The notes under the pieces were generated by a model. It was not told the DNA's origin. It ran no database searches and saw only the letters and a program-made list of their open reading frames with translations. 64,000 nt of DNA, taken from positions 84,543,918 through 84,607,917 of the forward strand of contig OZ038382.1 of assembly GCA_964036045.1 (NCBI GenBank), read 5' to 3'. The stretch is from Eutreptiella sp. 'Long Island Sound 2002'. Lineage: Eukaryota > Euglenozoa > Euglenophyceae > Eutreptiales > Eutreptiaceae. The number at the start of each line of letters is the position of its first letter. The first letter of the stretch is position 1. The position numbers and the translations under genes were made by a program. Shown piece after piece: positions 2,890-49,452 of the stretch.

Positions 2890-2988
2890 CGGAGCCCCTG
2901 CAGCCAAGGGCCCCAGCTAGGGCGGTCGCAGGATGGTGACGTGGGAAGCGCCGGTCCATCCCAGTCGGGAGCCGATAAGCACAAGGGG

Positions 2989-3021
2989 ACTGCCGCGGGC
3001 GGAAGGCCCGGTCTGGCGCCC
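2989..3021 (+). repeat. GC-rich hairpin, copy 1 of a motif repeated in pol
   Basis: This segment closely matches 6266-6299. Both contain CGGGC, a five-base loop and GCCCG, flanked by a second complementary pair. Here the loop is GGAAG; in copy 2 it is TGAAG and contains the stop. The first lies about 100 bp after the gag TAG, the second between RNase H and integrase. Confidence 0.5.
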
Positions 3022-6000: not shown

Positions 6001-6265
6001 GGCCAAGTTCGACCTTACGGTTGTTTACATTCCTGGAAAGGATAACACCGTGGCGGACTGTCTCAGCAGGTGGGCCTATCCCGCCAGCAAGGGCATGCAG
6101 GATATCTCTGCCCATGGCGATGAGGCTGAGACCGCTGAAGCCAAGAAGATCATTGAAATGGAGCGCCTGATGGAGGAGGAGGATGTTAAATGCTTCGTCG
6201 TCATGGCTGCCGATGCCCCCCTCGCTTCGAGGGTGAGCAGAACGGTCAGTGTGCTCGCCCCTGTG

Positions 6266-6299
6266 GGTGCCGCGGGCTGAAGGCCCGGTCCGGCACCCC
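6266..6299 (+). repeat. GC-rich hairpin, copy 2, with an in-frame TGA in the loop
   Basis: The outer arms GTGCCG and CGGCAC and inner arms CGGGC and GCCCG pair around the loop TGAAG, with GTC as a bulge. The TGA at 6278-6280 is the stop that splits pol between RNase H and integrase. Copy 1 has GGA at the equivalent place, so an ancestral CGA is the simplest explanation of this stop. Confidence 0.5.
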
Positions 6300-7849
6300 C
6301 TGTGGGAACTGAGTCCGACAAGCACCTCTTCCCGGAGTCTTGCCTCCAGGACGACTGGACCGACGATTACGCCAAGTCTGAGGCCTTTGCGGCCGAGTAT
6401 AGGGCTGTGACCGACCCTGACGACGGGCAGAAGTGGCCAAAGGGGCTGACCGAGGAAGATGGCAAGCTCTACCGGAATGGTAAGCTGCTAGTCCCGGAGT
6501 CCCGGGTGCTCGAGCTGTGTGAGGCTTGGCACCACCACATGCTGCACCCAGGGGTCAAGAAGCAAGCTCTTGACATGCAGCGTCGGTTCGAGATCGACCA
6601 TATCGTTCTCTACACCGCCATCAAGAAGGTCAGGAAGGGTTGCTCGGTCTGTCAGGCCTGCAATCCCGACAACCGGAACGTCAAGGGGGAACCCCAATGG
6701 ACCCCGGTTCCTGACCAGCCCATGGAAAGCGTGGCCATGGACGTCTTCTCCATGCCCGAGGTGCACATTGGCAAAGAGACCTTTGACTGTGTGGTTCTCT
6801 GTGTGGACCGCAACAGCGGCTACGTTGTAGCCGTTCCGGCACGCAAAAAGGGGTTGCTTGCCAAGCAAGTGGCAGTCATGATTCGTCATTGGCTGACCGT
6901 CTTTGACATCCCCCGCACCATTTGCAGTGACCGAGGGCCCCAGTTTACTGGTGGCTGGTTCAAGGCCATGTGTTCCCTGATGGGAATACGACACGCCAAG
7001 AGCGTCGCCTATCTCAGCCGGTCTAACGGCCGTGCTGAAGTGGCTGGACGGCAGCTGTTCGAGAAGCTGCGCAAGATCCACATCACCAATCCACGGCGGA
7101 ACTGGTTCGAGGAGATGTGGCCTGCTCTGAAGGCCCATCATGACACCCCCACTCCGGGCGGTTTGTCCCCTCACCAGATTCTGTTTGGCAGGGACCCCCT
7201 GGGTAGGGGACTTCCCTTGTCTGGTGATGGCATGGCTATGGATGCCAAGGAGTTCTTCGCGCGGCAAGAGCAAACGGCGCGGGACATCCGCCAGCAGCTT
7301 GAGAAGGAGCATGCTGAGCGTCAGAAGTCCGCCCCGAGCTCGACAGCGCAGAAGTTCAGGGTGGGAGACCCGGTGTGGGTGATCAGACCCCGCCCTATGG
7401 GCACCCACCGCACCAAGACCTGGTTCACACCCGGCGAGGTCGTCCGCAGGATTGGTGAGGACACCTACCGCATCAAGGTGGGTCACGGACAGTTCCGGGA
7501 GCGCCACGAGAGTCAACTCCGTGTGCGGGAACCCGACCTCCGTGGCCGACATGTGTCCCTGGACTACGCCAAACATGAGGCCGATTCGGACGACGACTAT
7601 GCTGAGCAGGACGACTATACTGTCGAGAAGATCCTGGCTCAGCGTCCGAAGGCCTCGGCACCCGGAGGTCTGGAGTTCAAGGTTCGTTGGCGAGGCTATG
7701 GGCCGTCCCACGACACCTGGGAACCCGTCTCCTCATTCGTGCCGCGGGTCAATACTCCCTTCATGGAGTACATCCGCAAACACAAGACCAAGATCCACGT
7801 TTCGGACTTGGCAGCACTCACCCGGGCGATTGCAGCCAGGGGTGCCTGA

Positions 7850-23703: not shown

Positions 23704-24153
23704 TCATCGTAATGTTCGTAGTCGGGGACGTAAATCGTGGGGTCCGCCCCCGGGTCTGGCAGCGCCCAGGTTGGTGCGCGCCAACGGGGGCGGGGGGGGT
23801 GGTGACGCCGGGTCCTCGTTGGTAAGGACGTCCAACCACTCAACGTCGGGGCTGTCCTCCCTCCCGCCATCGTTCCGGACGATTTGCTGGATCAGAGTGC
23901 GCAGTGTGTGGAGTGTGAGGTCCTTGTCTTGCGTTTCGCGCGGCGGCGGAGCTGTGCAGAGGGGATACGGTCGCCGGCAAAGTGGGCACAACCAGAAATT
24001 CGCGATGCACAGGCTGCAGAACCAGTGCAGCTGCTTGGTGCCGCCGCAGCCGAGGCCATTGCCACGGAGCGGGTTGCCTTTTTTGTCGTTCATCTCCCAG
24101 CAGACTCCGCACGGGTTTCCCGGCCGCGGATGTGGAGCTTCATTTTCGGGCAT
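23704..24153 (-). pseudogene. RING-like zinc finger at the start of the LINE second ORF
   Basis: From an ATG at 24151-24153 the frame reads a Pro-rich start and then a Cys/His array: CGVC, a CGG turn, LHWFCSLCI and LCPLCRR (about 23958-24122). This spacing fits a RING or RING-like finger, which usually binds ubiquitin-conjugating enzymes. A RING plus an Ulp1-type domain in one retroelement ORF suggests handling of ubiquitin or SUMO-like tags. The start lies about 115 bp after the RT ORF stop. Confidence 0.6.
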
Positions 24154-24268
24154 CCTGAGGAGAGGTATGGTTTGTAGGACGATCGGGCCTCTATACGGGA
24201 GGGAGTGCACGCGCTCCGGGTGGCACAATGGCAGGTGCCTGGTGGTTGCCGCGTGCCCGTGCGTGTGG

Positions 24269-24709
24269 CTAGTCGCTGGTCTGTGCATGTTGGTAGTGGA
24301 CGAGGAGGTTATCATACGTACGGCGGTCGTGGGTTGTTTGTTGTGCTTCCTGTGCGTATACTTGGACGCGGTGCTGTAACTGTGCGCCTGCCCTCTTGTC
24401 GGCGGTGAGCTGCATCTGACGTACTGTGGCCCTAGGTTCCCGAACGTGGTCGGCAATGACCCTGTAGAGTTGGAGTGGCACCGCTCCCCTGAGTACTGCC
24501 TCCTTGATCTCCGGTTGCCGCATCAGGCGCCGAACCTCATTTGCTGCTGGCGTGGCCGGGCCCCATCCAGCGTGTTGTGCTATGCTGTTCTCCGGTGTCC
24601 ACCTGGCCAGGTCGTTTCCCCCTTGGGCTAATGGGCATTGTTTGAAGTGTTCCCACGTTTCTGGCTGTTGGTGATGGCAGGGGCATATGGTGTATTCTGG
24701 GGGTTTGTC
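24269..24709 (-). pseudogene. LINE RT ORF, 3' end (after the DNA transposon)
   Basis: Contains the Cys/His tail typical of plant-type LINE RT proteins: ICPCHHQQPETWEHFKQCPL (about 24640-24700). The frame then runs to a stop at 24269. It is continuous with the LINE part right of the transposon: deleting 24715-31108 plus one TATAC joins ARRG directly to IDKPPEYT. Confidence 0.8.
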
Positions 24710-24714
24710 TATAC
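24710..24714. repeat. Target-site duplication TATAC (left)
   Basis: TATAC directly left of the transposon, repeated at 31109-31113. One copy is needed to restore the LINE frame. Confidence 0.9.
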
Positions 24715-24743
24715 CTTAGGCTGCTCAAGTTGCATGGTCAAAA
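24715..24743 (+). repeat. Left terminal inverted repeat, 29 bp
   Basis: Reverse complement of 31080-31108 with one mismatch at position 8 (T here, G in the other arm). Confidence 0.92.
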
Positions 24744-25214
24744 TTCGCCCAAAGCTGCCTCTCCACGGCACTGCGAAAAAATAGTCGTTTTGGGGGGGAC
24801 CAAAAACACAAGAACCCAAAATCCTGTGATAAGCAATTAACTGGTCCATTTTCCCTTATTTTCAACAAACCCGACTGCCCGGGAAATTGATTTATTTCCA
24901 CACAAATGAAGTTCTTTTTTGGGAAAACCACGACTTTTTGTTTCCTATACCACTTATGCTTTGCAATAAAAACACCCATGAGCTTTCAATCTTTTGGAAA
25001 ACAAGTTTTCGAAAACCATGTTGCACGCTGCACAACAAGAAGCATTTTTTGGCACCCCTTCTTTGCGCGAGGCCTCGCTCAAACACCAACACAACAGCGC
25101 AAGAAAATGCATCACAGAGAAAAATGTGCTGCACAAGGTGACGGCATAAAGGTTGTCGAAGAGGAATGCATAGCGCGAGCCCTCGCGCATAATATATTAG
25201 AACAAGCGAAGAAA
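24744..25214. other. Transposon left subterminal region
   Basis: AT-rich, non-coding. Two palindrome copies lie here (25065-25080 and 25173-25188), downstream of the ParB-like gene stop. Confidence 0.6.
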
Positions 25215-26024
25215 TTACTTTTTCTTCGGAAGAGTTTGCATCTTAGAATCCAATGCCTTAGCAACGGACGTCTTACCCTTAGGCGGTGGCTTTGCGGGCT
25301 CGCTTCTTGGTTGGGACTGACGGGCTGGCTGCTTGAATGGAGCTCCGGCCCCGGTTTTCTCCGACCTCGGCTTCGCTGCCACTTTATTCGCTCCCTTGCC
25401 CTGGGAGACCTGCGCTTCCTCCTCCTCTTCTTCCTCGCTCTCCTCCTCTTTATCCCCATCGCTCTCGTCGGATTCTGCACCGGTAACGGACTTCGCTGCC
25501 TGAGGCTTGGAGGCAGTCTTCTTCCTCTTGGGGGCTGGTTCCCCACCAGTAAACTTCCGCTTTGCAGCCGCCAGTGCTTCTGCAGCTTGACCTTTCTCAA
25601 CAGTCTCTTCCTCCCTCAGCGACAACGCATCAGAGCCCACCTTGTCATCGCGAACTCAAAGGGGAATACCACGGTTTGACCAGTTGGCCCGCTGGTCCCA
25701 ATCACCAGACGCGTCCAGTTTTCACCCTTGTGTCAGGACGTGGTTCAACTGAGTCTGCACTCTGTTGACCCAATCGGAGAGATTGTCGGAGGTAACACCA
25801 AGAAGGTACATGCGAGAATCAGGCTCGATGGACGCGATCTTGAACACCAGATCCGGGTGATGATCAATGAACACAAACGCAGGCTTGAAGCTCTTATCCT
25901 GCTTCAGGTAAAAGGAATGAGTGTCGAAATACCACATAACCGTTGTTATCGGAAGGTGATCGCCAAATTCAACAGGATTCATCTCCTCTACTTGAGTAGG
26001 TCCAAACGTCAGATAATTCGGAAT

Positions 26025-26091
26025 CTGCAATGAGGGAGAAGTTATTGCGTGAGGCCTCGCGCAAAGAGCGGACGTAACGAGGGAATTATAC
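26025..26091 (-). other. Intron of the ParB-like gene, 67 nt, with palindrome
   Basis: Donor GTATAATT and acceptor CTCATTGCAG on the minus strand. The palindrome at 26047-26062 starts 22 nt from the 3' splice site. Confidence 0.7.
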
Positions 26092-26791
26092 CCTTCTCGA
26101 CCAGCTATCTGGTGACGAAATCAGCAACCAGCAAACGTCAATGGTTGTAGGATCCCCTGCAGGCTTCGGTTTGACTGGCCAACTGAAGATGGGAACACGC
26201 AACATGTTAGCCATGCGCGGCGCGATGAAATCATCGTTGGGACGCCTATCTGTTTCCGTGTCCAGCACGTTGAACATGTTGTCAACAACAGTTTGAGAGC
26301 CGCAGATAAGGGTATCGGCACGCGCCATCTCTTTATACAGCCAGGCTGGGCACATCATCTCAGGAGCAAGATGTTCAAATATTGTGCTGTTGATGACAAT
26401 CAGGTTTATGTCAATCTCAATAAACCGCCTCGGGGGATCGTGGGCCAACGCTGCAATTCGGGTCGCCTTAATTGTGATAGTTTGACTTGACAGTAATGGA
26501 TCCTGCTGTTCCACTGTCTTGAATTCACCAGTAACCCCAGCAGCTGGGGGGACCACACGGCTCTTGGTAGGCTCTTGACCCAGGAGTTTCTGGACGTTGA
26601 GGATTTTCAGGGAGGCGGGTTTGCCTTTCTCTGCCACCTGCCACAGTGGTGCGCGAATCATGGATTTCCATGTTGGCCATGGACCGCGACTTTTGCCTTC
26701 AGGTTCCCGCCAAAGCCCCATGTACCAAGAGTCACCTTCAGGGCAGGCCTTCCAAGTGCAGCAGCCTCTTTGCGGGTCTGCATGTCTTTGG

Positions 26792-26865
26792 CTAAAAAAC
26801 AGAAATGGAAAAAGTGCGGCGCACCAATGCAGCAACGGAACCCGTGTCTCGTCGATGGTACACAC
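26792..26865 (-). other. Intron of the ParB-like gene, 74 nt, without palindrome
   Basis: Donor AAAG/GTGTGTACC and acceptor TCTGTTTTTTAG. No GCGCGAGG palindrome is present, though it has a GGTGCGCCGCAC stretch. Confidence 0.5.
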
Positions 26866-27163
26866 CTTTCTCAGGTCGAACGTACTGGCCGTTGTGCGGG
26901 TGGTCCAGATGCATCGAGACCCACTGGTCAAGGATGATGTCATCAATCGAATTCAGCAAGGGTTTAAGGGTTGTTTTTGCTTCCTGCATCACTTCTGTCA
27001 CTTTCTTGTAGAACTCCGGCAACAGGATCTCGTCCAGTTTCTTCAGCGCGTTCTCCGTGACTTTCTCCCCTTTGTCGTGGAACTTCTGCAGGGCTTTCAC
27101 AGCTTCCGGACCAGCATAGTAGGCAAACGTCATAACATCTTTCCACAATTTATACGTTTTGTC

Positions 27164-27234
27164 CTGAAAGTGACAACGTTATGCGCGAGGCCTCGCGCAA
27201 CGAACAGTATCGAAACAACGATTAATGAACATAC
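27164..27234 (-). other. Intron of the ParB-like gene, 71 nt, with palindrome
   Basis: Donor TTC/GTATGTTC and acceptor GTCACTTTCAG. Contains an exact palindrome at 27183-27198, 19 nt from the 3' splice site. Confidence 0.75.
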
Positions 27235-27596
27235 GAATTGACCAGGCTGCTTCAGTTCGGCGGTTGGAACCAGAGCACTCATCTGCACAGCATCCACAAT
27301 GGTGATCTTGAGATTGCTGTACGTGTCAGCCAGGCCTCGCCGCCGCTGATCTTCAACACATCGAATGAGGTTATCTGCTGCCTCATACAGCGGTATTGGC
27401 TCAACGTTCTGTGCGCTTCCTTTTGCTTGTCCCGCCGGCTTTGCACGGAAGGCCCACGGTGTCGTAGGCTTCAGAACATCGGCGATGCATGTAGTATGCC
27501 ACTGCTGCAGATCCGGACACGCCGTGCGTCGCTTCTCTCGAATCTTTGCAATCGCTTCCCCGCTGTGCTGTCCAGATACACACCAGTAATCGCCAT

Positions 27597-27669
27597 CTGC
27601 AAATATGAGACACGTCTATGCGCGAGGGCTAGCGCAACAAGAAGAGCGAACAGTCGGTTGGCAACATAC
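27597..27669 (-). other. Intron of the ParB-like gene, 73 nt, with palindrome
   Basis: Donor GTATGTTGCC and acceptor CATATTTGCAG. A three-mismatch palindrome lies at 27620-27635, 23 nt from the 3' splice site. Splicing joins VVLWEDN to DYWCVSGQH within the ParB-like fold. Confidence 0.8.
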
Positions 27670-28036
27670 TATTATCTTCCCAGAGAACGACGTGTAATGG
27701 GCCTGTTGGCGGTGCTGCTTCGAGTGACTGAATACGCTTCTGCAGTAACTTCGTATCTTTCCGTCTAATCTGCCCCTTTGTCTTCTCCTGGTCTATTCTC
27801 ACGTTGTGCAGCTCAACCTCCACCTGCCTCCCATCCAGCTTCAGGGTGTCCTGGATGTCATTACCCAAGGTTCAGCCAGGATCTGGTGTTTCCTTCTTCT
27901 TACGCCCCTTCTTTGGTGTTCCAGCCTCGGATCCTGAGGTCCCAGGGTCATAGTCGGTATCTTCTCGTTCCTCGGCTGTTTTTTTGCGGGGCTTGCCATT
28001 CTGCGATAATGAGAAAGCCTGTATTGAAGGAAATAT

Positions 28037-28234
28037 AACATTGAAAAGGGTTAAAATCGTCGTCAATAATGCATATGTGAGGCGCTTTTAGCGAATACGA
28101 GTACAATATGGTTGAGAATGCAAAACTGAAGAGGCTCGGCACTGTTTTTGACTGTTAACCTTGCGCGACGCCTCGCGCAAGAGAGGGGGTGTACTAACCT
28201 GTTGTTTCATGCTGTTTGCGCGAGGCCTCGCGCA
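28037..28234 (-). other. Intergenic region of the transposon with two palindromes
   Basis: Lies between the transposase stop and the ParB-like coding start. The palindrome at 28218-28233 abuts the transposase TGA; the other is at 28163-28178. A short 5' exon of the ParB-like gene could lie here: ATGAAACAACAG/GTTAGT near 28190-28208, with acceptor TCAATACAG near 28025. This is not certain. Confidence 0.5.
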
Positions 28235-30223
28235 TCACTGCATGTTCTTCAATCTTCTTCGAACGTTTCGCAGCGTGTCGGCCTCTCTCTGTTCCTCCAA
28301 CACACTGCGTTGGGGGATCAGCTCCGACAGTTTTCGCTTAAAACCAGCCTTAAGCGGCCCCTGCTGCATTAGCACCAACAACACAGACACAAGGACTTGT
28401 TTGTAGTGGTTAGAACCCTTTTGAATTAGAAGAGACGGTGGAAAGTTAGGTACACCCCTGCGCGGCCAATGCGCCTGAATTGTACAAGTAGGCTCAGCAC
28501 ACCACCTAACCCAAGGAACATATACACGCTCTGCGTTCAAGTAAGCAGTTAACCGCTGACGCACAGAATTACCAAAGGAATTGGGGATTTTGCAGACGTT
28601 CACCCTGTGACCTTCTTTGCGGATGATGATAAGACGATACAGATCGTCAACATCTTCAATGGTTACTGCACCTCTGTTTTGGCCCTTCTTTGTCACAAGA
28701 CTGGAAAGCAGACTTTCACAAAACTGCTCGGCAAAAGACTGTCCAGGCATGGCTGTGTGCCATGCAGTGTGGCACAATAGCGCAGTTGCAACAGTGCGTT
28801 CCTATTTTAAAAGTGTGTCCCCCATGTTCAAACGGTCTAACAGACACATAACAATCTGCAATCCCTCAGAAGCAAAGACACCCGCGTTGGCAGTCTCCCC
28901 GGCCCAATTGCACTGTCTAACGAGGTGACCTACGTATAGTAACATAGGACAGTATTGTGTGAACAAAACCTGTATGGCCTTACACACAGCGTAACGGAGG
29001 CGTCCTCACCGATTTACAGGACGTGCCAGCCCAAGGGAATCACATTTTCTGTTAAGGCGCCGTATGTGGGGGCCCATACCCAACAGCAGTGCGCCAACAG
29101 TTATCTCCATTGTGATCAGCTTGGGAAGACAGGGGACTGTGTCACCGCCTCGCAACAAATCTTTACGGAAGAAAGTCATGATCGGCCAAAATGAGCGAAA
29201 TGTTTGTGTAGCGCAAAAATTGTACGCGTGCCAGAAACCATACAATATAGGGTGTGACCGTAAGAAAAGCCGGACATTCCAACCCGTTGTCTTTTCACCG
29301 TACATCATCTTACAAATGCGGTAATGGATGTTCTCATCACATACAACAGGCACGACTGGTCGAGTGTGCTGCGCCAAGTCCCTGTGAATTGCAATAGTTT
29401 AAGCAGCGAGACGTTGCCGCTCACCTCCTCTTGGGTTAGTCAAAGGGGTCGCCAATGTGGTCTCTTGGCAGGTACAGGGCGAATAATGTCAAGCGGCGCC
29501 CTAATGTCTCGAACAACAGGTCGCGTGCTTGCAAGTCCTAGATCACGCAGGATACGTGCAAATGTTCCCTCGGTGTTCCCCAGCATGCGTGCAACAACAG
29601 GAACACGCCGTTCAAGCTCTTCCAGGCTAGAATGACCATGCCAGTAGCGTGGTGCATCATTCAGTAGCAACACAGCCAACGCTGTTGCGTTCAAGCTTTT
29701 GTCCTTCTTGTCAGGATTTGTGGTAAGCTGTTTGTTGTACCAGTTGTCCATCCACAACACAACCCACTGTTGGTGTATTTTGTTCCATGTAGTCTGTAAC
29801 CTGACCGCGGCCTTCTCCTTTAGCGAAGGTGCGCTGTATCGCGCCAGACCTGACCTTGCTAAAATGCGACGCTGCGCCCTACTTCCCTCTACCGCAACAA
29901 CTGACTTTGGTGTTCCCTGGTATTGAACCGCGCGGTGGCGCATCAGCGAAAGAAGACGCCAGGCCTCCACTATCAAAACGCCAACCCATCCCTTGCCTTC
30001 TGTCGCAATTGCCTTTTGAACGCTGCAACGCGTCCGTTCATTTTTGCGCAGACGCAGAAAAAACACAAACAACAATCGCGCGCCCTCGTCCCCCTGTTTT
30101 ACCCTTTTCCACAGTTCTTCTGCCGTGACGTACGGCGGTTCCTCTGAGCAGACATCACGGAAAACTCCGGATGTGGCGGCCACTGTCTTCTCAAGGTCCA
30201 CCTCTTTTCGCAGGGGCATTGTT
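28235..30223 (-). pseudogene. Candidate DDE-type transposase
   Basis: An acceptor-like TTTTTCACAG precedes an ATG at 30217-30219, so upstream exons are likely. Features in order: HQQWVVLWMDNWYNKQL (about 29725-29780), VVPVVCDENIHYR (about 29325-29365), HPILYGFWHAYNFC and FWPIMTFFRKDLLR (about 29180-29270), then a helical C-terminus ending RRLKNMQ at 28235. Asp residues at the ends of two hydrophobic strands, followed by a Trp/Tyr-rich helix, suit an RNase H-fold transposase, but the family is not recognised. Stops at 29006-29008 (TGA) and 28802-28804 (TAG) and a frame break near 29430 mark decay. A 43-nt intron at 29382-29424 is possible but very short. The only other multi-exon gene in the element lies directly downstream. 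Confidence 0.55.
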
Positions 30224-31079
30224 GCTGTGAAAAATAATTGCGTACCTGTATCTATGTAAAGATCGCTGTTTGGAAAACTTTCTTGATTTCAAACATCAAG
30301 CTGTCACACAGTTTTCGCGCGACCAATTATTCTGTGATTCGCTTGTCGCATGCACCATTTTCGGGTAACTGTACCTGTCTGGTGATCCCACATTTGACTA
30401 GTTAATCCTGATTGCGGTAGCCAGTTGCGGCGCGCTACCATCGCTGTTGGGCAGTGAAGCCAGCAGTGACCACAGTATGAAAACTGGAGATGCTGGCGGG
30501 ACCTGTGTGGCCGCCCATGCAGCAGTGCCGCATGAAGGGAATGCACATGCTGTGTAGTTGGTGGATCTGTTCCATTTTCGTTTTCTATGAGCGCTTATGA
30601 GATCCATTGCGCGAGGTCTCGGACAAGAATCACATAAACTTTAATGTTCCTCATGCGACGTTCCATGCGCGAGGCCTCGCGCTTGAAACTGCAGTTTGTT
30701 CCCGAACATTTATACTTTTCAAGATTCTTGGGTACACAATTGTTGAAGTTTCTTCGTGAATAGATCCATCTCTATCACGCAATCCTGATAATGGTACTAA
30801 CTTACGCGTATAAATACGACAGGCTTCCATTTTTTGACAACCTGCCTAATGCGTCGTGCTGTAGTACATTAATCTGACACAAATGAACGTCTTTGCGCGA
30901 GGCCCCGCGCAAGGAATCGTCACCAAACAATACTTTTTCCTGTCTCGCCCATGGGACACGTCATTCTTAGGGAAATATTTATCCCGCCATACTTGTTTGC
31001 GACGGTTTTAAAATATCCATCAAAACAAATATTTTTCGATGCCTTTGGAAACCTGTCATTTTCCTACCTTTTCCTTCGT
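30224..31079 (-). other. Transposon 5' region, possible upstream exons
   Basis: Three palindrome copies (30609, 30667, 30895) lie here. The minus-strand frame 30304-30546 includes a Cys-rich FSYCGHCWLHC that could be an N-terminal zinc-binding piece of the transposase, but no splice path is certain. The rest is AT-rich. Confidence 0.4.
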
Positions 31080-31108
31080 TTTTGACCATGCAACTTGAGC
31101 CGCCTAAG
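31080..31108 (-). repeat. Right terminal inverted repeat, 29 bp
   Basis: Pairs with 24715-24743 (28 of 29). Confidence 0.92.
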
Positions 31109-31113
31109 TATAC
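31109..31113. repeat. Target-site duplication TATAC (right)
   Basis: Matches 24710-24714. Confidence 0.9.
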
Positions 31114-33678
31114 CTCGCCGGGCATACCAGCGTGCCACTCTGTCTAGGAGGGGCAGTTGTTCGGGCAAGAGTTGGGTACGTGGTGGTTGCGGGTGCATCG
31201 GTATTAGGGATGGGTCATGAGCCGAGAAGTATAATTTGGTGCGCATTTTATGTTGGAGATGGTTCAGAGGGCCGTCTTCGGCTTGGCTGCCTCGAATGTG
31301 CGCCATGGTGCGGATAGGTTGTGGGTAGTGGTATGCCCGCCCCGTGTCGTTATGGATTCGATCTTCCGGCACCCAGGCTGGTGGTTCCCTGGGGCGGGGG
31401 ACTGGCAGCAGGTGTTGGAGGTGCGTGTGCATGTGGTCTTGTAGCGGCGGGTCCTCGCCGTCCGGCACATGCTCGGCAAGCTGGTTGTGGGCGTGTAAGT
31501 CTATGTGTCCGTTGCCCAGGCTATACCGATGAGACTCTTGTTTGAGGAGATGTGAGACGAGCTGTTTGGGGAGGTGCCACAAGGCTGTCCAGAGGTGTAG
31601 GGCCTGGGTGCCCAGGCTAGAGTCCGTCGCCTTGGGCAGGGGCTGTCGTGCCAGTCTGCAGACGATTCGGAAGTCCATTGCTGCGTCTACCACCACCCAC
31701 ACATGGTGCGTGTGGTCACGCGGTTCCTGGTGGGTGTCATTGACGGCGTCCACGACGATCGGCAGTGTCTTCAGTTCCCCGTGAGAGGAGGCCCCGAGGA
31801 TTGTAGACCCTGTGAGGTGGTGTTGGTGCAGCCGGCCTGTCGTGTCCGCTTTCAACTCCACAGCTGCCCCCAAGGCCGCTGGGGTGAGGCTTGTAGTGCC
31901 GGAGGCATTCGCAAAAATGACGGTGTTGTGGTCGTTCGGGTGCGGCAGGCGGCACTGCGTCGTTGGTTGGTAAGCACGGATGTGTGCCCCCCGTTCTGTG
32001 GTGGCCCACGGCACGTTGGCGTCCGGTCGGAGTCTCCGGGTAGCATACATGCCCAACCCCTGGCGGATGATCTCGGTGGCCGCTGGGTTCATGCGGACAT
32101 AGTCGTCGCTCCCCTCGTGGCCCTGTGTCAGATAGCCGTACACATACTGGAGCAATTACGCTTTCTGCGGGTGGAATGTGGTCCAGTCCACCGTTTGCCA
32201 GTCCTGTACTTGGGAGCATCGGTGTTTAACCGGGTAGGCGGGGGCCTCCGGCGTGGCGCTGCGGTGTTTGGCCAGGACCGGGAAGGTGACGGCCGGGTGA
32301 TTGGTGTCCCACGTTCCCCGGTGGAATCTCCATTCCGCCTTGGCGGCGGGGCCCCACGCCACTGTGGCCGTGCCCCTCTCCGCGGCCTGTTCGAAGTGCG
32401 TGTGTAGCCACCGGTGTTGTTCCAGGGTAGCGTGGGCCGTTGGCATGGGGTGGTAGCGCGCCAGTAACAGGAGGAGGAGCCACGCAGTGGCCAGCGCTCG
32501 GGGCCCACATCTCCAGCAAGTGGTGGGGGTGCCCGTCAGCTTGTCTTGCGACAAGCTGAGGCGGAGAGAAGGGGCGCCCCGTGGGTGGCGGTAGCATCCA
32601 TAGGTTGCCCCGTGCTCTGCCCGGTCGCAATGTGGCTTTGAGCCCGTTGGGCACTAGGAGGAGTATTGCTGGCACCGTGGCACCGGGTACATACTCCACT
32701 TGCTCCGGCGGCCAGTGGTGGGCCTGGTTCCCTCGCGGTGGGCCTGGTGGCAGTGGCCGTTTGAGCTTGTTCCAAAACAGGTTGTACGCCTCACGTACTT
32801 CCCCATAGGTCGGTTGGAGGTGCCCGGTTTGGGTGGCCGCAATGCGCATGTGGCTGTCCAGGAATAATTTTTTTGGGCCACTCCGGGTGTTGTAGGAATG
32901 AGACGTGGTGTGTGCCCACCCGTTGAAGGGCTCCCATCTGGTTTGGGGTGACCCGTACGAGGTGGAGGATGGTGCCCACCAGGTCTAGAGTGGTGGTGCT
33001 TCCCGTTGGACCTTCCCCCACATCGGTGTGCAGGACCGCCAGAGGGCCGATTTCCCTGCACCAATGGTTCGTTTGGATGACCTGCTGGTGGTGGGGTAGC
33101 AGGAGTTGTAGGTGGTTCCATACGCGGGCCCCCACCTTGGTGGGGAGGCCCCGCTGGTGAAGTATGTACTGGGGGCGGGTGTTGCAATGGTATTTGGCGT
33201 TTGGCAGCGTCAGCGTGAAGACTTCTCGTACCTCCGGCTCATGATTGTGCAAGAGACGGTGCAGGTGGGCCGCAGTGTGAGCTGTGTAGGTGTTGTTGAC
33301 GAGGTGATCCGTGTTGTCTCCGTAGTACGGTGGCGACGCCTTGCGCACCGCTGCAGGTAGCGATCCGGGCCGGTGGCCGTGGATGGTCCACGCTCGTGGC
33401 ACTGTGGTAGCGGCCGCTTGCAGCATGTGTTGGGGATGCGTTAGGTGCAAGGCCTGAAATCCTACAGCGGCGTTGAGCACGGCTTGTAGGAAGTACGCCA
33501 GGGCCTGGGTGGAGAGTGCCGTGATGCGTGCTATAACCAGTGTCCGTGTCAGCTGCCGTATCATGTTTGTTGGTAGGGTGACCCCGCCTGCGATGGCCGC
33601 TTGTTGGACCCCCAGGTAGGTGGCAGTGTTTACTGGGTTCATAAGCGGGTCCCCGGGGCGGAGGGGCGGCGGCGTTGC
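31114..33678 (-). pseudogene. LINE RT ORF, thumb/linker and RNase H (between the two insertions)
   Basis: Minus-strand frames 32791-33642, 32226-32849 and 31114-32155 form one frameshifted coding region. The early part (TATYLGVQQAAI) is the region after the RT palm. Near 31890-31920 starts an RNase H-like domain: VIFANAS at the first Asp position (Asn here), HGELKTL, VWVVVDAA and GNGHIDLHAHNQLA. The RNase H would degrade the RNA strand after copying; the first Asp change suggests loss. Its right edge meets the LTR element and its left edge the DNA transposon. Confidence 0.7.
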
Positions 33679-39008: not shown

Positions 39009-39935
39009 TCAGTCCGTAGCTTTAGTCTTGGAGGCAAGCATCTCAAGGAGCCTCAGCAACTCACCAAGGTTGTTTCGGGAAGCGTAGTCTACCAGAACTG
39101 AGTTTAGGCGTCCCTCAGGTAGAACAAACGCTGAGAGGGGCTCCCAGGTGGCCTCTCCAACTCCAAACCCTTCCCAGAGGGTGAAGAAGCGCCAACCCTG
39201 GCGATAGCGGTTGCGTAGGACAGACTTCACCAGGTAGAAGCCCTCCTTAGCCATCTCCTCACCGATCATGTCGGGGAGGTCCCCTTCCACTTCCATTGGG
39301 CTGGCAGGCCCCTGTAGGTCTAGGGCGACGATTTCCTCGTCGTTCAGCTCCCACTCCTCCCCACAGAGGTCTTCAGGATCATAGTAGCGCTTCAGGTGTT
39401 GAGCAGCGCACACCAGGGTCCCCCCTAAACGGGGAGAACACCGCACTGTTATACGGTTTTCATCCACAGATAGAATCTTGTAGGGCCCGAAGTAGGGGTC
39501 ATCGCTAGTAGAGCGTGGCCAGGCGTGTAGTCGGCTGTGGTGCACCAGCACCCAGTCCCCCTCTTGGTAGGTGGCAGGCACCCGGTGCTTGTTCTTTATG
39601 TTCCACTGACGCTCCCTCACTCTCTGGACCATAGCCTTGGCCTTGTCCACCTTCGCTTGTTGCTCCTGGACCCACTCACCCACAGAAGAATGGGTCTCCC
39701 CTGGATAGGGAGCATGTAGGAACCACGACGGGCGCCCTAGGAATAGTTCATGGGGTGAGTAGCCAGTCGCTGAACTCTCTTGGGAGTTCATCATCAAGGA
39801 TATGACGGGGAGTAGTCTCACCCAGTCTTTGCTGCGTTCAGCTTTGCACCATATCCTTACATTCTCCTGGAGGACATGAATCTGTCGCTCACATAGGGTG
39901 TTGCTCGTGTGAGAGGAGGGGATCCCTGTAGACAC
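39009..39935 (-). pseudogene. pol: Element B integrase C-terminal half and chromodomain
   Basis: SNTLCERQIHVLQENVR is the region of the catalytic Glu of integrase (CERQ). GYSPHELFLGRPSWF is the usual end of the core, followed by an SH3-like stretch (GDWVLVHHSRL). The end, FYLVKSVLRNRYRQGWRFF and ATWEPLSAFVLP, is chromodomain-like. Separated by a stop and a frame change from the preceding part. Confidence 0.8.
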
Positions 39936-39952
39936 CTAGACATTGAGGGATC

Positions 39953-41224
39953 TCAGAACCCTCTGAAACCAGCCGGTATCTGAGCGTACTCGTACGTCCT
40001 CATCGGGGTTGATCTCCTTGGGCGCCAAAACACACAAAACCACTCCTCCAGGAGTATCTTGATAGTCTTCTCCCCCGTAATTTGCTTGGTAAATGGGAAC
40101 ACCCTGGTAAACTTGGTCAGTTCACAGGTCACCACGAGGGCGAAGTTATAGCCCCAAAACTTCGCCATCTCCGTGTAGTCCACGTAGAGAACACTGTTAG
40201 CACAGTGAGGAATGGGCAGGGTCAAGTAGAGACCCCTGTCCCTGATGTCCCCAGGTTTGCAGGACCTACACGGGCACTTGTCCACGATAGGCTGGAGGGT
40301 CTTCCGCAGTTGGTCATCAGTCCACGTAGTGTGGAACCACTGCTTGAATAGCCTCAGGGTACGGTAAGACACCAGATGACCGCTGGACTCATGGCTCCAC
40401 TTCAGCAGCGCTGGGACTCTGTCACTGGGTACCACAATGCGGTCCTCGTGCCAGAGGTAGCTCTTGTCCCTCTTCCACTGTTCTTGGTTGACCAGGAGGG
40501 GTTCAAGGCGTTTCTCCAGGCTCTTGTAGATATCCCCAAACTCCTTCAGGTACCCCGCTTGTTGGAGTCCATCTAGGGGGCGTATCATAGTCATGTTGAG
40601 GTCCAAGTGTACATCCATACGGCTGAACGCCTCCTTAGCCAGCGCTTCGGACCGGGCAACAATCAGGGCGTCGAAGTTGTTGCAGCTGATGTAGTCTGCA
40701 TACTCGTTCTTCACTCCCTGGATATGGTGTACCGTCAGCTGTAGCTTGGCCTTCTCAGGTGGGGGACCCTTCTGGAAAGTGCGGACCGGCTCTTGGTTGC
40801 ACAGCCAGACCACAGGGTTACTCCCCAACAGTCGTGCCTGAGAGGATAGCACCAGCATACCCGCGAGCAATTCCTGCTCATAGGTGGGGTAGTTGCCCCT
40901 GGCCTGGTTCCATTTCCAGTTCCAGTGGGCGAGGGGTACTAGGACCCACTTGTCGTCAGGGTAGCTGTGCTTGAGAGTTCCATCTCGGTTGAGACCTCCA
41001 GTCCCCCTTTGAGAAATAGCCGAGTCGAACTCCTGCTTCTCTAGTGCTTGCCATTGGAACAACATTCCACCACCGCCCACATTGCTGGCGTCGGTCACCA
41101 GGAAAATCTCACCGTGTGCTCCAGGCACGTCCACGCACTTAGCGTTGGCCACCTTGTCTTTGAGCTCGTCAAACGCTTGTTGCTCTTGTGGGCCCCAGCG
41201 CCACGTAGTTCTTTTCTTGATCAA
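39953..41224 (-). pseudogene. pol: Element B RNase H and integrase N-terminal half
   Basis: QQAFDELKDKVANA and FLVTDASNVGGG mark the RNase H start; EQELLAGMLVLSSQ carries the Glu. HESSGHLVSYRTLRLF and CPCRSCKPG form the HHCC finger; SVLYVDYTEMAKF holds the first integrase Asp. The block with the second Asp lies beyond a frame break at about 39960. Confidence 0.85.
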
Positions 41225-41335
41225 GTCCGTAGGAATGGCGCTGGTGTGGGTGAAGTTCTTGATATGGCGGCTGTAGAAGTTGCACGCTGCAATGAAACTG
41301 CGTACATCATGGAGTCCTTTCTTGGGGTCTTCATG

Positions 41336-41974
41336 TCATACCTTAGCGTCCATCAGGGGTTTGGCCTTAGAGGCCGCTGGGGTCCACCAACCAGAGCCAA
41401 CGTCAAACCCCAGGTACTGCATGGTCTCCTGCATGAACTCACACTTCTCCAGCTTGAGTCTTCTGTGGTTCTCCTGGCAGACCGCAAAGAACTCAGGCAA
41501 GAAGATTGGGTGATCCTCCTGGGTATTGGTCCCGAGGCATACATCGTCAATGTGCGCCTCCATCTGGGCCCCACGGGATATGAGTTCTTGCACCTTGGGT
41601 CTTCTTCATAGAATGGACAACATCTTGTTCATCAGCTCTTGGAATAGAGCGGGTGCATTGGCCACGCCGAAGGGCATGACCTTGCACTTGAACACCCTCC
41701 CCTGGGGGGTGATGAAGGCTAGTAGCTCCTGAGCGTTGGGCGTCAGGTCCACCTGCCGGAATCCGCTCCTCTTGTCCATATTGGTCTTGTAGCGACAGGA
41801 GGCTATCTTCTGAAGGGTAGACTCCATATTAGGAATGGACCCTGAGTGGTTCAACGTTTTCTTGTACAGCTCTCCATAGTCCACTACCAGCCGTTTGGCT
41901 GTAGACCCAGGCTTAGCCACCAGGAAACAGGGGCTGCAGTGTTGGGGGTAGTCCCCGTCCTTGTACTCCAGCAC
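41336..41974 (-). pseudogene. pol: Element B reverse transcriptase
   Basis: Two minus-strand frames (41974-41606 and 41593-41336) form one RT palm: RLVVDYGELYKKT, NMDKRSGFRQVDL, CKVMPFGVANAPALFQ, then after a one-step frame change AHIDDVCLGT (YxDD region) and QYLGFDVG. The upstream N-terminal part (42000-42700) is broken by stops. Confidence 0.85.
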
Positions 41975-41999
41975 TAGGCCAGCGTTGCTACATTCTTGT

Positions 42000-42903
42000 A
42001 TCTGTCACTCAATCTCGTCGGCCTGCTCTTTAGGAGCCGGATAGGGTCTCATCTGGAACTTGTGACCCACGAACTAGGGTTTCAGCTTGAGGTCCATCTG
42101 TACCAGCTTGTCACATGAGGCTGGGTGTGGTAGTTCCCTGAACACCTCCAGATAGGTCCTTATAAGCTTCTGCACCCGCGGGTCCAATAGCTTGATCTTG
42201 TCCTCTATGTCCTCATCAGAGTGTAAGTTGCTTGCCCCCTGAGTAATAGACGTCGGGAGGTGATCCTCTACCCACTAATCGCCCTTGGTAGTATCCTTCA
42301 ACCCTTGGTAGGCATATAGTAGGTCTCGTTCAACCATCTCAGGTGGACGATGGCAACATAGGCACCCTCGAGGGGGTTCACATACACATTCCTCCACACG
42401 CTCTTCATGAGCTTAAGATCTACCTCCCTTTGCCAGGTGGTGATCTTCTGTTCGAGGTCCTCCTTCAATTGGGATGGATATCACATATGTCCTTGCTTCA
42501 GGCGCCATGAGCTGCGGGTAGGCTTAGCGTAGCAGAGCTTCTTCGCCACCATCCTGCTCTTGGAGTCCACGTACTCTCTTACCCTGGATCGGGGGTCCAG
42601 CTCCTCGTCCACGGGGTTTTCCACCCTCATGAAGAGTAGGGGTTTCAGTGGGGCGACGTACTCGGCATTCTCCACTTCCTCCACGCATGTCTGCACTAAG
42701 AAGGCGTCATGCTCAGTTTCGTCATCAGAGTGGATAGAGCTGTGGAGCTAAGATAGTCCACACTCAGAGACTCCATCAGGAACAGGTACATGGCAGGGAG
42801 AGTATGGGGCATTGGTGTTAGTCACGACGTTTTCATATCCCCCTGTTATAGTCTCAATACCATCTCCAGGTCGTAGTCGATCCTTCAAGTCACCCTGGGT
42901 GAG
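42000..42903 (-). pseudogene. Element B linker between MTase-like domain and RT
   Basis: Minus-strand pieces such as EYVAPLKPLLFMRVENP (near 42620-42665) are coding-like but interrupted by several stops. No domain recognised. Confidence 0.4.
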
Positions 42904-43839
42904 TCAATCGCTCTCTCGTTGTATAGCCTGGACCAGAGTTGAGTCCAGGTCCTCCCAGAGGATGGAGGTAAGACCCCCATCCACCACGCTGAGCATACTT
43001 CCCCATCCGGGTTTCCCGATGGGCGTCTTCCGCCCCAGAGGCACGTAGATGGCCTCATCAGGTAGCCGAACAGAGCTGATAGTCAGCCTGTCCAGGAGAT
43101 TTCGCCAGTACTCGTTGCCCCCATGGGCTCCCCAATAGGGGGAACACAGGACCATACTGGAACGTTCCAGGGCCACCTTGGTCAAGACCTTCACCGGTAC
43201 ACTGAACCTGGGGTTCCCGTAGGCCCTCCCGAAAGAGGGCCAGTCAAACTTGTAGCTGCAGTTTTTCCTCTTGCTGCAGTAAAGGTCCAAGACATGTTGC
43301 TTGTCGCTGGCGAACAGCTCCACGCTCAAGTCTTCTCTGGAGTAACCCAACACCTTCAGACCTTCGTCTAGGACTTCGCCCAATAGTTGATAGTCCTCAG
43401 TTTTGGAGGCCGCCATCATGTTCGAGGGCTCCTCCTTCGACACCCCCAGGCAGCTCGAGATATTCTGTGACTGCTCCAGTGGCAGGGACTCTCGGCCATT
43501 GCCGTGGTCCACGTAGAGGGGGTAGGGCACTTGTAGCGTCAGGGATTGTACCTCAGAGTGGTGCACGAAGAAGTCAGTCCCCAATACAAAATCGAAGGCC
43601 TCAGTGTCCATCACATAGAACCGATGGGCGATAGTTCGGGAGCCCATTGGTACCTCCACTCCACAGTCCCCGCAGCTGTGCACCACATGTCCATCCCCGA
43701 TTCGTATATCCGCGGTGGTCATGGTGTTCTTCAGGCTCCCACAAGGTAAAAATTGCTTGGCCACTATAGATATGGTGACTCCAGTATCCAGTACTCCCAG
43801 GTATTCACGTTTCCCTAGTCGGATACGCACCCAGAACAC
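42904..43839 (-). pseudogene. pol: Element B protease and methyltransferase-like domain
   Basis: LGVLDTGVTISIVAKQF is an aspartic protease active site, and DFVLGTDFFVHH is the second protease strand. Further on, SVELFASDKQHVLDLYC, SYKFDWPS, YGNPRFSVPVKVL and SSMVLCSPYWG match the layout of the adenine-methyltransferase-like domain also present in elements A and E. Here the NPPF-type motif reads NPRF. Confidence 0.7.
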
Positions 43840-43978
43840 CAGGTCCAGGGCCCCACCGGAGCCTCCCCATCAGAACTCCGCGAGACAAGTCACCTCGAAC
43901 AACCTGTTCCGCAATTTGAGGGCCATCCTCATGAAACGGCTTCTCTTCTTGGCGTTGCCATCATCACCACCTTCATGC

Positions 43979-45404
43979 TCACGCTTGGCCCCTTGCTCTC
44001 GCTGGGCCTGGGTCTGCGAGCGTGTGGTAGGACCAGACTGCCCTCCAGAGGGTTCGGAGTTCCCCCCAGGGATTAGGGTTCGGGTTGCCTTCTTTCTTGT
44101 CCGAGTTCTTGTGGTCCTTGTCTGGCTGGCAGTTAGCGCCTCCTCCTCGTCCACCTTGGCTCTTGTACTGTCCTTTTCCACGTCCTTTCGACTTGCCCTT
44201 GCCGGAGTCGTTGCCTTTGCTCTTGCCACCGCCCTTGGAAGAGCTTTTGCCAGGATCCTCGCCCTTCAGCTTCGCCGACAGGCGCTGCTTGTGGTAGCAC
44301 TCATCCTCGTAGTGCTTCCTCTTCCCACAGAAGGCACAGGTGATAGTACACCTGTAGTGATCCGGCATCTTAGGCTTGGCGCCAGTGTTGGTCTCCTGCT
44401 TCTTCCCTTGGACTACGAAGGAGTCTCGCTGCTCGCAGTCGGGGGCGTGCTGCAGGTGGCCATGCTCATCTCTGGCGTCGCACCAGAAGAGGCCCTTGAC
44501 ATTGTCCATGATACGGGCGTGCTTGGAGGTAGTCCCCTGTCCAGGTCTGGGTCCTTGGTACCCTTTGCCATGGCTTCCAGAGCCTTCTCCCCCAGGACGG
44601 TAGGCGTTCAGGTGCTGGTCGCTTTCTTTCTCCGGCGCCAGCTCCAGGAGTAGCACAGACAAATCCTCGTAGTTGAGGGCTCTAGCCTTGCGCTCTGCCG
44701 TTGACCGGCACTCGTCCCACAGCTCCCGGGGGAGCTTAGCCACCAACCAGAAAAGCAGGTCGTTGCTGCTGTAGGAACCGGGCGTCAGTCGTCCAGCCGA
44801 GTGATCCAGGCCAGCTAGTAGCTTGGAGACCCTGGAAGTTTTGGGGTTGTTGGGCAGCACGGCCAGGTTCTCGATCTCGGCCCTGACGGAGAGGTCAGTT
44901 TGGTAGGTAGGGTACTGCCTCTCCAAGGCAACCAACACGTCGGCAAAGGTGGAGGACTTAGTCACGATCTGCTTGACCTGCTTCTCCAGGTACTTGGTCT
45001 TGCAGGACTGCAGGAGCAGATCACACTTGCCTCGCCCACTAGCATGGGTTTGGCCGGTCATTCAGAGTAACCGGCGAAAATTCTCAGCGAACTCGCTGAG
45101 ATCCTTGCTCGTGAACTCAGGCAAGTTCGGCCACGATCGTTGAGGTGGCAATGCACTTAGCCTCCCGAGACCTGCGTCCCTCAGGGCGCCTGGTCTTCCT
45201 CTTCTTCTTCTTCTTCCGCCCACTGGGGTTCTCGGGGTCCTCAGGGTCGTCGTCCTCTGAGGGTAAAGCAGAAGTCATGGACGGCGGCTCATCAACAGAG
45301 GGGTCTCCGCCTAGGTCACTAGAGCCATGGGGCTCCTCGTCAACCATTGCCCTTAGGGCTGTCATCCCCCGCCGGTCCATCTCGGCTCTCCTGGAATTCC
45401 CCAC
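43979..45404 (-). pseudogene. gag: Element B gag
   Basis: An acidic/basic N-terminal piece (45404-45117) is followed, after a one-base frame change near 45120 and a TGA at 45062-45064, by the capsid-like part (45061 down). A canonical CX2CX4HX4C knuckle (CAFCGKRKHYEDEC) lies near 44300-44345, then a Lys/Gly/Ser-rich tail. Confidence 0.8.
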
Positions 45405-47570: not shown

Positions 47571-49452
47571 ATGTGTGTGCAGTGTCCTGGGCCACTTGGC
47601 TCCCGTTCACCGGTGCGCCCGCTGGGTGGGTGGTGTTGCGTGTGCGGTGTCCTTGGCCACTTGGCTCCTGTTCACCAGTGCGCCCGCTCGGTGTGTTGCT
47701 TTGCGTGTGCGGTGTCCTGGGCCTCTTGGCTCCTTTTCACCGGTGTGCTCGCTCGGTGTGTTGTGTTGAGTGTGCGGTGTCCTGGGCCATTTAGCTCCTG
47801 TTCACCGGTGTGCCTGCTCGGTGTGTTGTGTTGCATGTGTGGTGTCCTGGGCCACTTCGCTCCTGTTCACCGGTGCGCCCGTTGGGTGTGTTGTGTTGTG
47901 AGGGCGGTGTCCTGGGCCTCGTGGCTCCTGTTCACCCGTGTGCCCGCTCGGTGTGTTGTGTTGCGTGTGCGGTGTCCTGGGCCACTTGGCTCCTGTTCAC
48001 CGGTGCGCCTGCTCGGTGTGTTGTGTTGTGTGTGCGGTGTCCTGGGCCACTTGGCTCCTGTTCACCGGTGCGCCCGCTGGGTGTGTTGTGTTGCGTGGGC
48101 GGTGTCCTGGGCCTCCTGGCTCTTGTTCACCGGTGTGCCCGCTCGGTGTGTTGTGTTGCGTGTGCGGTGTCCTGGGCCACTTGGCTCCTTTTCACCGGTG
48201 CGCCCGCTGGGTGTGTTGTGTTGCGTGTGCGGTGTCCTGGGCCACTTGGCTCCTGTTCACCGGTGCGCCCGCTGGGTGTGTTGTGTTGCGTGGGCGGTGT
48301 CCTGGGCCACGTGGCTCCTGTTCACCGGTGTGCTCGCTCGGTGTGTTGTGTTGCGTGTGCGGTGTCCTGGGCCACTTGGCTCCTGTTCACCGTTGCGCCC
48401 GCTGGGTGTGTTCTGTTGCGTGTGCTGTGTCCTGGCCCACTTGGCTCCTGTTCACCGGTGCGCCCGCGCGGTGTGTTGCTTTGCTTCTGCGGTGTCCTGG
48501 GCCTCTCGCCTCCTGTTCACCGGTGTGCTCCCTCGGTGTGTTGTGTTGCGTGTGCGGTGTCCTGGGCCGGCTGGCTCCTGTTCACCGGTGTGCTCGCTCG
48601 GTGTGTTGTGTTGCGTGTGCGGTGTCCTGGGCCACTTGGCTCCTGTTCAACGGTGCGCCTGCTGGGTGTGTTGTGTTGCGTGGGCGGTGTCCTGGGCCAC
48701 TTGGCTCCTGTTCAGCGGTGTGCTCGCTCGGTGTGTTGTGTTGCGTGTGCGGTGTCCTGGGCCACTTGGCTCCTGTTCACCGGTGCGCCCGCTGGGTACG
48801 TTGTGTTGCGTGTACTGTGTCCTGGGCCACTTGGCTCCTGTTCAGCCGGTGCGCCTGCTGGGTGTGTTGCTTTGCGTCTGCGGTGTCCTGGGCCTCTTGC
48901 CTCCTGTTCACCAGTGTGCTCGCTCGGTGTGTTGTGTTGCGTGTGCGGTGTCCTGGGCCACTTGGCTCCTGTGCACCGGTGCGCCTGCCCGGTGTGTTGT
49001 GTTGTGTTTGCGGTGTCCTGGGCCACTTGGCTCCTGCTCACCGGTGCGCCCGCTCGGTGTGTTGTGTTGCGTGTGCGGTGTCCTGGGCCACTTGCTTCCT
49101 GTTCACCGGTGTGCTCGCTCGGTGTGTTGTGTTGCGTGTGCGGTGTCCTGGGCCACTTCGCTCCTGTTCACCAGTGCGCCCGCTCAGTGTGTTGCTTTGC
49201 GTGTGCGGTGTCCTGGGCCACTTGGCTCCTGTTCACCGGTGCGCCCGCTCGGTGTGTTGCTTTGCGTGTGCGGTGTCCTGGGCCACTTGGCTCCTGTTCA
49301 CCGGTGTGCTCGCTCGGTGTGTTGTGTTGCGTGTGCGGTGTCCTGGGCCACTTGGCTCCTGTTCACCGGTGCGCCTGCTCGTTGTGTTGTGTTGCGTGTG
49401 CGGTGTCCTGGGCCACTTGGCTCCTGTTCACCGGTGCGCCCGCTGGGTGTGT
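47571..49452 (+). repeat. 65-bp minisatellite, about 29 copies
   Basis: Unit starts can be read at 47951, 48016, 48081 and 48146, exactly 65 bp apart. Units contain GTGTCCTGGGCCACTTGG and CTCCTGTTCACCGGTG. A is rare on this strand, so no stop occurs and all three + frames stay open through most of the array. The resulting 500-790-codon frames are artefacts of the repeat. Confidence 0.95.

Follow-up and report, generated by a model that had tools for sequence, protein, structure and literature searches.

What kind of mobile element carries two genes and ten copies of one 18-base-pair (bp) palindrome, and what are these palindromes for? The question is raised by a locus in a 64,000-nucleotide stretch (hereafter the window) of the euglenophyte Eutreptiella sp. 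'Long Island Sound 2002' (assembly GCA_964036045.1, contig OZ038382.1, positions 84,543,918 to 84,607,917 of the forward strand), where a transposon interrupts a long interspersed nuclear element (LINE). The window copy is a decayed member of a multi-copy, two-gene DNA transposon, probably of the cut-and-paste type, whose ends start with CTTAG. Gene A presumably encodes its transposase, and gene B a second protein with a putative ParB-like N-terminal box. In the explanation that accounts best for the whole, and which we favor at somewhat better than even chances, the palindromes of this two-gene transposon are selected cis-acting sites that are most likely read by an element-encoded protein.

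The element, its ends and its relatives

The terminal repeats of the element are inverted, 29 bp long and identical at 28 of 29 positions. They are bordered on both sides by TATAC, and deletion of the element together with one TATAC reopens the LINE frame (200 amino acids (aa), reading ARRGIDKPPEYT). A preliminary description of this DNA, made from its letters alone, had claimed a transposon with exact ends and two minus-strand genes, and both claims stand. Its further statement that the element is complete holds for the ends but not for the genes, which are both broken in the window copy. The end pattern occurs only twice within the window.

The preliminary description had also proposed to search the genome with the 29-bp ends for other copies and for intact versions. 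When up to three mismatches are allowed, the end pattern has 1952 forward and 1902 reverse matches in the host assembly (2,280,300,865 bases, i.e., 2.28 gigabases (Gb), in 2205 contigs), compared with 0 and 0 for the reversed control. The length of the target site duplication was determined on 14 end pairs, namely the window and L010 to L022, the latter representing 13 of the 14 pairs less than 10 kilobases (kb) apart among the first 100 places listed (the pair near C1:13351667 is not included). The duplication is exact at 5 bp in ten pairs and matches at four of five positions in three; exact matches at other lengths amount to 1/14 at 4 bp and 0/14 at 6 bp, and mismatched pairs yield 0/182. 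The target duplication of this family, designated family 1, is therefore 5 bp. The remaining pair, L022, is not a true one: each flank is the inverted copy of the other, so that its two family-1 ends mark an inverted duplication and not an insertion.

A protein search with gene A retrieved 75 proteins at an expectation value (E) of 0.01 (7992 candidates scored). The best match, P0001, is an open protein of 661 aa that is 89% identical and represents 146 member sequences. A relative of P0001 with about 46% identity (P0074) and a subsequent genome search with P0081 led to a second family, and here intact versions were found. This search scored 69 places of 8579 candidates, of which 59 lack a stop and 36 share the score 1298.6 (counted by eye). 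Twelve places were fetched, both ends could be located in nine, and all nine measurable copies exhibit an exact 5-bp duplication, in agreement with the length initially claimed. The usual length of family 2 is 6860 bp. Five such copies differ from each other at only 3–11 positions, which documents that family 2 moved very recently, and genes A and B are open in all five (gene B with 881 aa after splicing). The ends of family 2 read CTTAGCCCACGCAAACTGCACC and have their first five letters, CTTAG, in common with family 1. One copy (L036) is flanked by an exact 5-bp duplication and measures 8272 bp, which exceeds the usual length by exactly 1412 bp; of its 12 palindromes, two repeat 1412 bp apart, corresponding to an internal tandem duplication that reaches into gene B.

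Between the families, gene A is 46–48% identical, and gene B reaches 32% in an alignment of 880 columns (E 1.7e-140). A third lineage of gene A, P0179, is 43–44% identical to family 2 and originates from another source, a contig of 1935 bases. The pairing of the two genes is not an accident of the window copy, because it recurs in family 2 and in fused open frames, one of which leads from gene A to the C-terminal part of gene B (P0048), while another joins a piece of gene B to a family-2 gene A (P0107). A second gene that is merely a chance neighbor is thereby ruled out.

Ten palindromes in noncoding DNA

The palindrome TGCGCGAGGCCTCGCGCA is absent from the preliminary description. It is 18 bp long and occurs ten times in the window with zero to three mismatches (two sites are perfect; 0.05 sites expected), always inside the element, and the remaining 57.6 kb contain none. 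In other copies, the read-through peptides CARPRA and ARGLA had given a first hint of it, which has been superseded by the DNA. Each family harbors ten palindromes in the same arrangement, with three upstream of gene A, two between the genes, three in introns of gene B and two downstream, and none is located in an exon, although exons make up 70% (family 1) and 68% (family 2) of the element. The distances of the outermost palindromes to the ends are 197 and 349 bp in family 1 and 198 and 345 bp in family 2. The three noncoding parts align between the families at 47%, 53% and 48%, and every inter-family noncoding BLASTN match (E 0.003 or better) includes palindromes; some matches extend slightly into the flanks, notably over 77 columns between the genes. 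Otherwise, the noncoding DNA of the two families is no longer alignable. Beyond the 18 bp, conservation extends only to one A/T at either border.

Several palindromes, which are self-complementary, fall within predicted introns or putative untranslated regions and might accordingly act as RNA hairpins in splicing, stability or small-RNA control. This role is very improbable, given that palindromes also lie within 200–350 bp of both ends, probably outside the transcripts, and that one of the four introns lacks a palindrome in each family. The palindrome-free intron 3 of family 1 (26792-26865) holds TGCGCCGCA, which could be the remnant of a palindrome with a deleted center; the matching intron of family 2 does contain one.

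Within family 1, a comparison of 13 copies found 41 of 2033 palindrome letters off the majority (2.0%), compared with 172/4166 (4.1%) in the 20-bp flanks of the palindromes, 929/20113 (4.6%) in other noncoding DNA and 1589/45435 (3.5%) in coding DNA. Changes from CpG to TpG or CpA affect 15/452 positions in palindromes (3.3%), 106/953 in other noncoding DNA (11.1%) and 176/2566 in coding DNA; as the copies are of common ancestry, the P values of this test are too small and its outcome is indicative only.

Short elements have retained the palindromes together with the ends. L050 (1709 bp) has family-1 ends, an exact TCAAA duplication and four palindromes, the outermost 206 and 376 bp from the ends, but no open reading frame longer than 122 aa. 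With ends and palindromes masked, it shows only short scattered matches to either family, the best of 20 bp (E 0.005); L003 is a second copy of this type, 94% identical over 1531 columns. L057, seen as a stretch of 1400 bases, combines a family-2 end with three palindromes, the outermost 200 bp from this end, and is elsewhere unlike family 2 except around the palindromes; its second end and duplication were not seen in this stretch. Such joint retention in a non-autonomous element, together with the nearly fixed outermost spacing (197/349 and 198/345 bp) and the better conservation of gene A than of gene B, would suit palindromes that are additional sites of the gene A transposase, i.e., internal or subterminal enhancers that help to assemble the ends. 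We regard this alternative as unlikely. The palindromes span the whole element including the introns instead of clustering at the ends, and the terminal repeats have diverged beyond CTTAG while the palindromes have not, so that one protein would have kept one specificity and changed another.

The assembly contains 10,135 exact palindrome sites and none for the reversed control; in a viral collection of 2.9 million contigs a single palindrome was found, on a contig unrelated to the elements. A sample of seven of the 10,135 loci (L047 to L050 and L057 to L059) corresponds to five elements, since L047 to L049 belong to a single one, and all five are members of the two families or bear their ends. 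A host-wide repeat was considered as well and was not seen among these five. A host DNA-binding factor exploited by the elements, such as a transcription factor, insulator or chromatin protein, would be an unchanging partner and could explain why the same 18 bp serve two families with very different proteins. This is quite unlikely, as host sites would then be expected, yet all seven sampled loci of the 10,135 lie in such elements and the rest of the window is free of palindromes. The string GCGCGAGGCCTCGCGC was not found in the literature searched, a search that subscription journals and Repbase lie outside.

The palindromes are thus probably functional, as cis-acting sites under selection, because they are kept between the families, change little within family 1, are retained in L050 and, at the seven sampled loci, always lie in elements of the two families or bearing their ends.

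The two proteins and a possible mechanism

Gene A is presumed to be the transposase of the element on the basis of its position, conservation and copy number. Seven sequences from three lineages share two invariant aspartates (LWxDNWY and xDENIHYR), which would suit an enzyme with DDE (aspartate-aspartate-glutamate) chemistry. No plausible match was found among the Pfam, NCBIfam or PHROGs models, PDB sequences yielded only two chance-level matches (E 0.96 and 1.8), and no relative was detected in viral and prokaryote collections at the sensitivity of the scan. The ribonuclease H fold, for which the preliminary description had recommended structure prediction, was not recovered: the mean predicted local distance difference test (pLDDT) value was 35.0 with 31 sequences and 57.7 with 86 sequences of three lineages, the latter model is all-helical, and the core was resolved in neither. 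Of the 22 Foldseek matches to the 86-sequence model at E 10, not one reached E 0.001.

Gene B starts with the ATG at 27999 and contains four introns predicted from the reading frame and GT-AG borders. The predicted splicing lengthens its longest open frame in all eight copies compared (5.7–6.4 kb, window included). In L010, for instance, 301 aa become 773 aa, and in L018 260 aa become 698 aa; the gains are smallest in the window (288 to 335 aa) and L014 (289 to 337 aa). Each of these eight family-1 copies has at least one defect in gene B (printed frames, by eye), and the window copy exhibits a stop and several frameshifts. An early model with an MKQQ start and an extra first intron was dropped, as other copies are out of frame there.

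For the claimed ParB-like fold of gene B the support is weak. When its profile is compared by HHalign with that of phage ParB proteins, the motif GPLxxxxWEDxxGxxxxxxGQH falls in register with the ParB box (P 0.003 and 0.0044, at a probability of only 10.5 and 7.8%), and none of 150 column-shuffled ParB profiles was as good (best 21.5 vs. 25.0; reversed profile 19.8). This alignment weakly suggests a ParB-like protein. Searches of Pfam, NCBIfam, PHROGs and PDB sequences brought nothing plausible for gene B. In the family searches with the two proteins, candidates set aside as weak and implausible are bone sialoprotein (Pfam, 0.045), clostripain (NCBIfam, 0.011) and ribosomal protein L35 (PDB sequences, 0.02), and likewise prothymosin (0.0099) and DDHD (0.014), which Pfam placed on the low-complexity tail of P0079; such matches remain far below the curated cut-offs where one exists. 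A tblastn search with the ParB-like region against phages and plasmids retrieved only chance-level matches (18 phage records at E 3 among the rows listed and three plasmid records at E 8–10), and two of the three plasmid records are annotated as ParB N-terminal domain proteins. No methyltransferase model matched the element.

In the mechanism that we propose, gene A would cut and join at the element ends, and the element would need, or profit from, about ten 18-bp palindromes in its noncoding parts. The gene B protein, which has an acidic and basic tail in addition to its putative ParB-like box, may read them; it is the best candidate for the reader, with a chance slightly short of even. Binding at many sites along the whole element could mark it as self, either keeping host silencing off, as VANC does for VANDAL elements, or loading or organizing it ahead of excision, in the manner of ParB on parS sites. 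In its fullest form, which is speculative and on balance rather doubtful, the proposal is a superfamily with its own partition-like system, in which a ParB-fold protein on about ten parS-like palindromes provides self-marking for anti-silencing or pre-transposition assembly, and non-autonomous relatives persist via ends and palindromes.

Several points weigh against this proposal. Palindrome binding by an element protein is something that we infer. Of the two genes, B is the more diverged between the families (32% vs. 46–48% identity), hence a palindrome that stayed identical is by itself no pointer to gene B. Neither Pfam nor PDB searches give significant homology with ParB; up to a nominal E of 10, Pfam lists no ParB model (HMMER filters drop most matches above about 0.1). 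The canonical ParB box that binds cytidine triphosphate (CTP) is GERR, and this position is occupied by SGQHS in family 1 and NGQHG in family 2; the box is not kept, and nucleotide-dependent sliding should therefore not be assumed. The introns of gene B are predicted ones, and those bearing palindromes differ between the families (1, 2 and 4 in family 1; 2, 3 and 4 in family 2), which represents turnover. Finally, the element-specificity of the palindrome is based on five elements, and the within-family test on copies of common ancestry.

The recently active transposon has both genes intact, ends that are short and well delimited, one recognition sequence that does not vary and thousands of end matches in the genome. 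It offers a clean test of whole-length self-recognition by a eukaryotic element and of the recruitment of a ParB-type protein, and gene A would add a transposase lineage that is unrecognized by the family models searched. The features of the window copy are compiled in Table 1.

Table 1. Coordinates of the transposon, its genes and palindromes, and the interrupted LINE frame in the window
Feature	Position	Strand	Remarks
Transposon, family 1 window copy	24715-31108		two minus-strand genes inside
Left 5-bp target site duplication, TATAC	24710..24714	.	5-bp length borne out by other copies
Right 5-bp target site duplication, TATAC	31109..31113	.	5-bp length borne out by other copies
Left terminal inverted repeat, CTTAGGC...	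24715..24743	+	
Right terminal inverted repeat	31080..31108	-	28/29 to left one
Gene A, presumed transposase, 661 aa if read through	28235..30219	-	broken: one frameshift, three in-frame stops
Gene B, second protein, ~830 aa, five exons, putative ParB-like N-terminal box	25215..27999	-	broken here; eight-copy spliced reading
Gene B intron 1, with palindrome	27597..27669	-	predicted (frame, GT-AG)
Gene B intron 2, with palindrome	27164..27234	-	predicted (frame, GT-AG)
Gene B intron 3, without palindrome, holds TGCGCCGCA	26792..26865	-	predicted (frame, GT-AG)
Gene B intron 4, with palindrome	26025..26091	-	predicted (frame, GT-AG)
Palindrome, 1 mismatch	25064..25081	.	downstream of gene B
Palindrome, 2 mismatches	25172..25189	.	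downstream of gene B
Palindrome, 1 mismatch	26046..26063	.	intron
Palindrome, perfect	27182..27199	.	intron
Palindrome, 2 mismatches	27619..27636	.	intron
Palindrome, 1 mismatch	28162..28179	.	between genes A and B
Palindrome, perfect	28217..28234	.	abuts gene A stop codon
Palindrome, 3 mismatches	30608..30625	.	upstream of gene A
Palindrome, 1 mismatch	30666..30683	.	upstream of gene A
Palindrome, 1 mismatch	30894..30911	.	197 bp from gene A-side end
Host LINE open frame, part before insertion	31114..32155	-	window open reading frame 31064-32155
Host LINE open frame, part after insertion	24269..24709	-	window open reading frame 24269-24715

Just past the interrupted LINE frame, the window contains a cysteine-rich, RING-like open frame (23704-24522, minus strand, by eye). 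Two Ty3/gypsy-like retrotransposons, one per strand, are located at 1828-7849 and 39009-45061 (reverse transcriptase and integrase-like frames, by eye). A minisatellite with a 65-bp unit in about 29 copies (47575-49452) is open in all three forward frames over more than 500 codons, and a tandem array of 196–209 bp units in about 25–28 copies (53738-59347) has a G+C content of 73–77%, above that of the rest of the window.

Comparison with known systems

Transib elements are characterized by 5-bp duplications and CAC-type ends, and Sola elements by 4-bp duplications. The transposon differs from Sola in the exact matches of its family-1 pairs, one of 14 at 4 bp and ten at 5 bp, and its ends, which start with CTTAG in both families, agree neither with hAT ends nor with those of the CAC type. 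Moreover, no sequence similarity to Transib or CMCT was detected, and none to hAT transposases with Pfam and PDB sequence methods. The 5-bp duplication is shared with hAT5 (PMC12730594). In P0001 an HxxxH (CHTAWH) is seen by eye ahead of the presumed catalytic glutamate, which is itself not certain, resembling the H(3-4)H motif that precedes the last catalytic residue in the CMCT group (PMC12730594); a CxxC was not seen in P0001 by eye. KDZ elements differ by a duplication of 7–8 bp (PMC12730594). Gene A could therefore be an extreme member of a described superfamily, e.g., a relative of 5-bp hAT, Transib/CMCT or KDZ elements, in which case the element would represent no new superfamily. We regard this as a substantial possibility, if less than an even one, which is compatible with any of the readings of the palindromes. 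It is opposed by the ends and by the lack of a plausible match of gene A in Pfam, NCBIfam, PHROGs or PDB sequences, searches that also bear out the initial impression that no known superfamily could be named. Within the literature compared, a new superfamily is likely.

The closest structural analogue is ParB on parS. There the site is likewise a palindrome of about this length, and the N-terminal box of gene B aligns weakly, in register, with that of ParB. The differences comprise the absence of a significant family match, the replacement of GERR and the spread of ten sites over a nuclear transposon.

The preliminary description knew of no eukaryotic transposon that pairs a transposase with a ParB-like gene. 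This does not hold: ParB-like accessory proteins in transposons have precedent, because Sola1-1_Ec32 of Ectocarpus is reported to contain an accessory gene in which a ParB-like part is joined to a DNA methyltransferase; according to a suggestion by the authors, the product binds its own element and modifies it (PMC12477816). Both are eukaryotic DNA transposons with an accessory protein that is ParB-like, putatively so in the present element, but Sola1-1_Ec32 is a 21.5-kb element with a methyltransferase fusion encoded on the opposite strand (PMC12477816), whereas the present element matched no methyltransferase model, has both genes on the same strand and generates a 5-bp duplication. The word stem palindrom- is absent from the main text of the Ectocarpus paper, the only one that looked relevant for ParB and eukaryotic transposons among the matches listed in our literature search.

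The closest working analogue is VANC of Arabidopsis, which removes methylation from its own element and whose VANC21 motif (YAGTATTAY) occurs in VANDAL21 introns, between genes and in terminal noncoding DNA (PMC5735166). Both systems combine an element-encoded second protein with a short noncoding repeated motif that is enriched in the own element and does not reach such density elsewhere (PMC5735166), and, among the five elements sampled, the palindrome is likewise element-specific and confined to noncoding parts. VANC21 motifs are short, have one orientation and often form tandem repeats that vary between related elements (PMC5735166), whereas the Eutreptiella motif is an 18-bp perfect palindrome, mostly single, spaced and unchanged between the two families.

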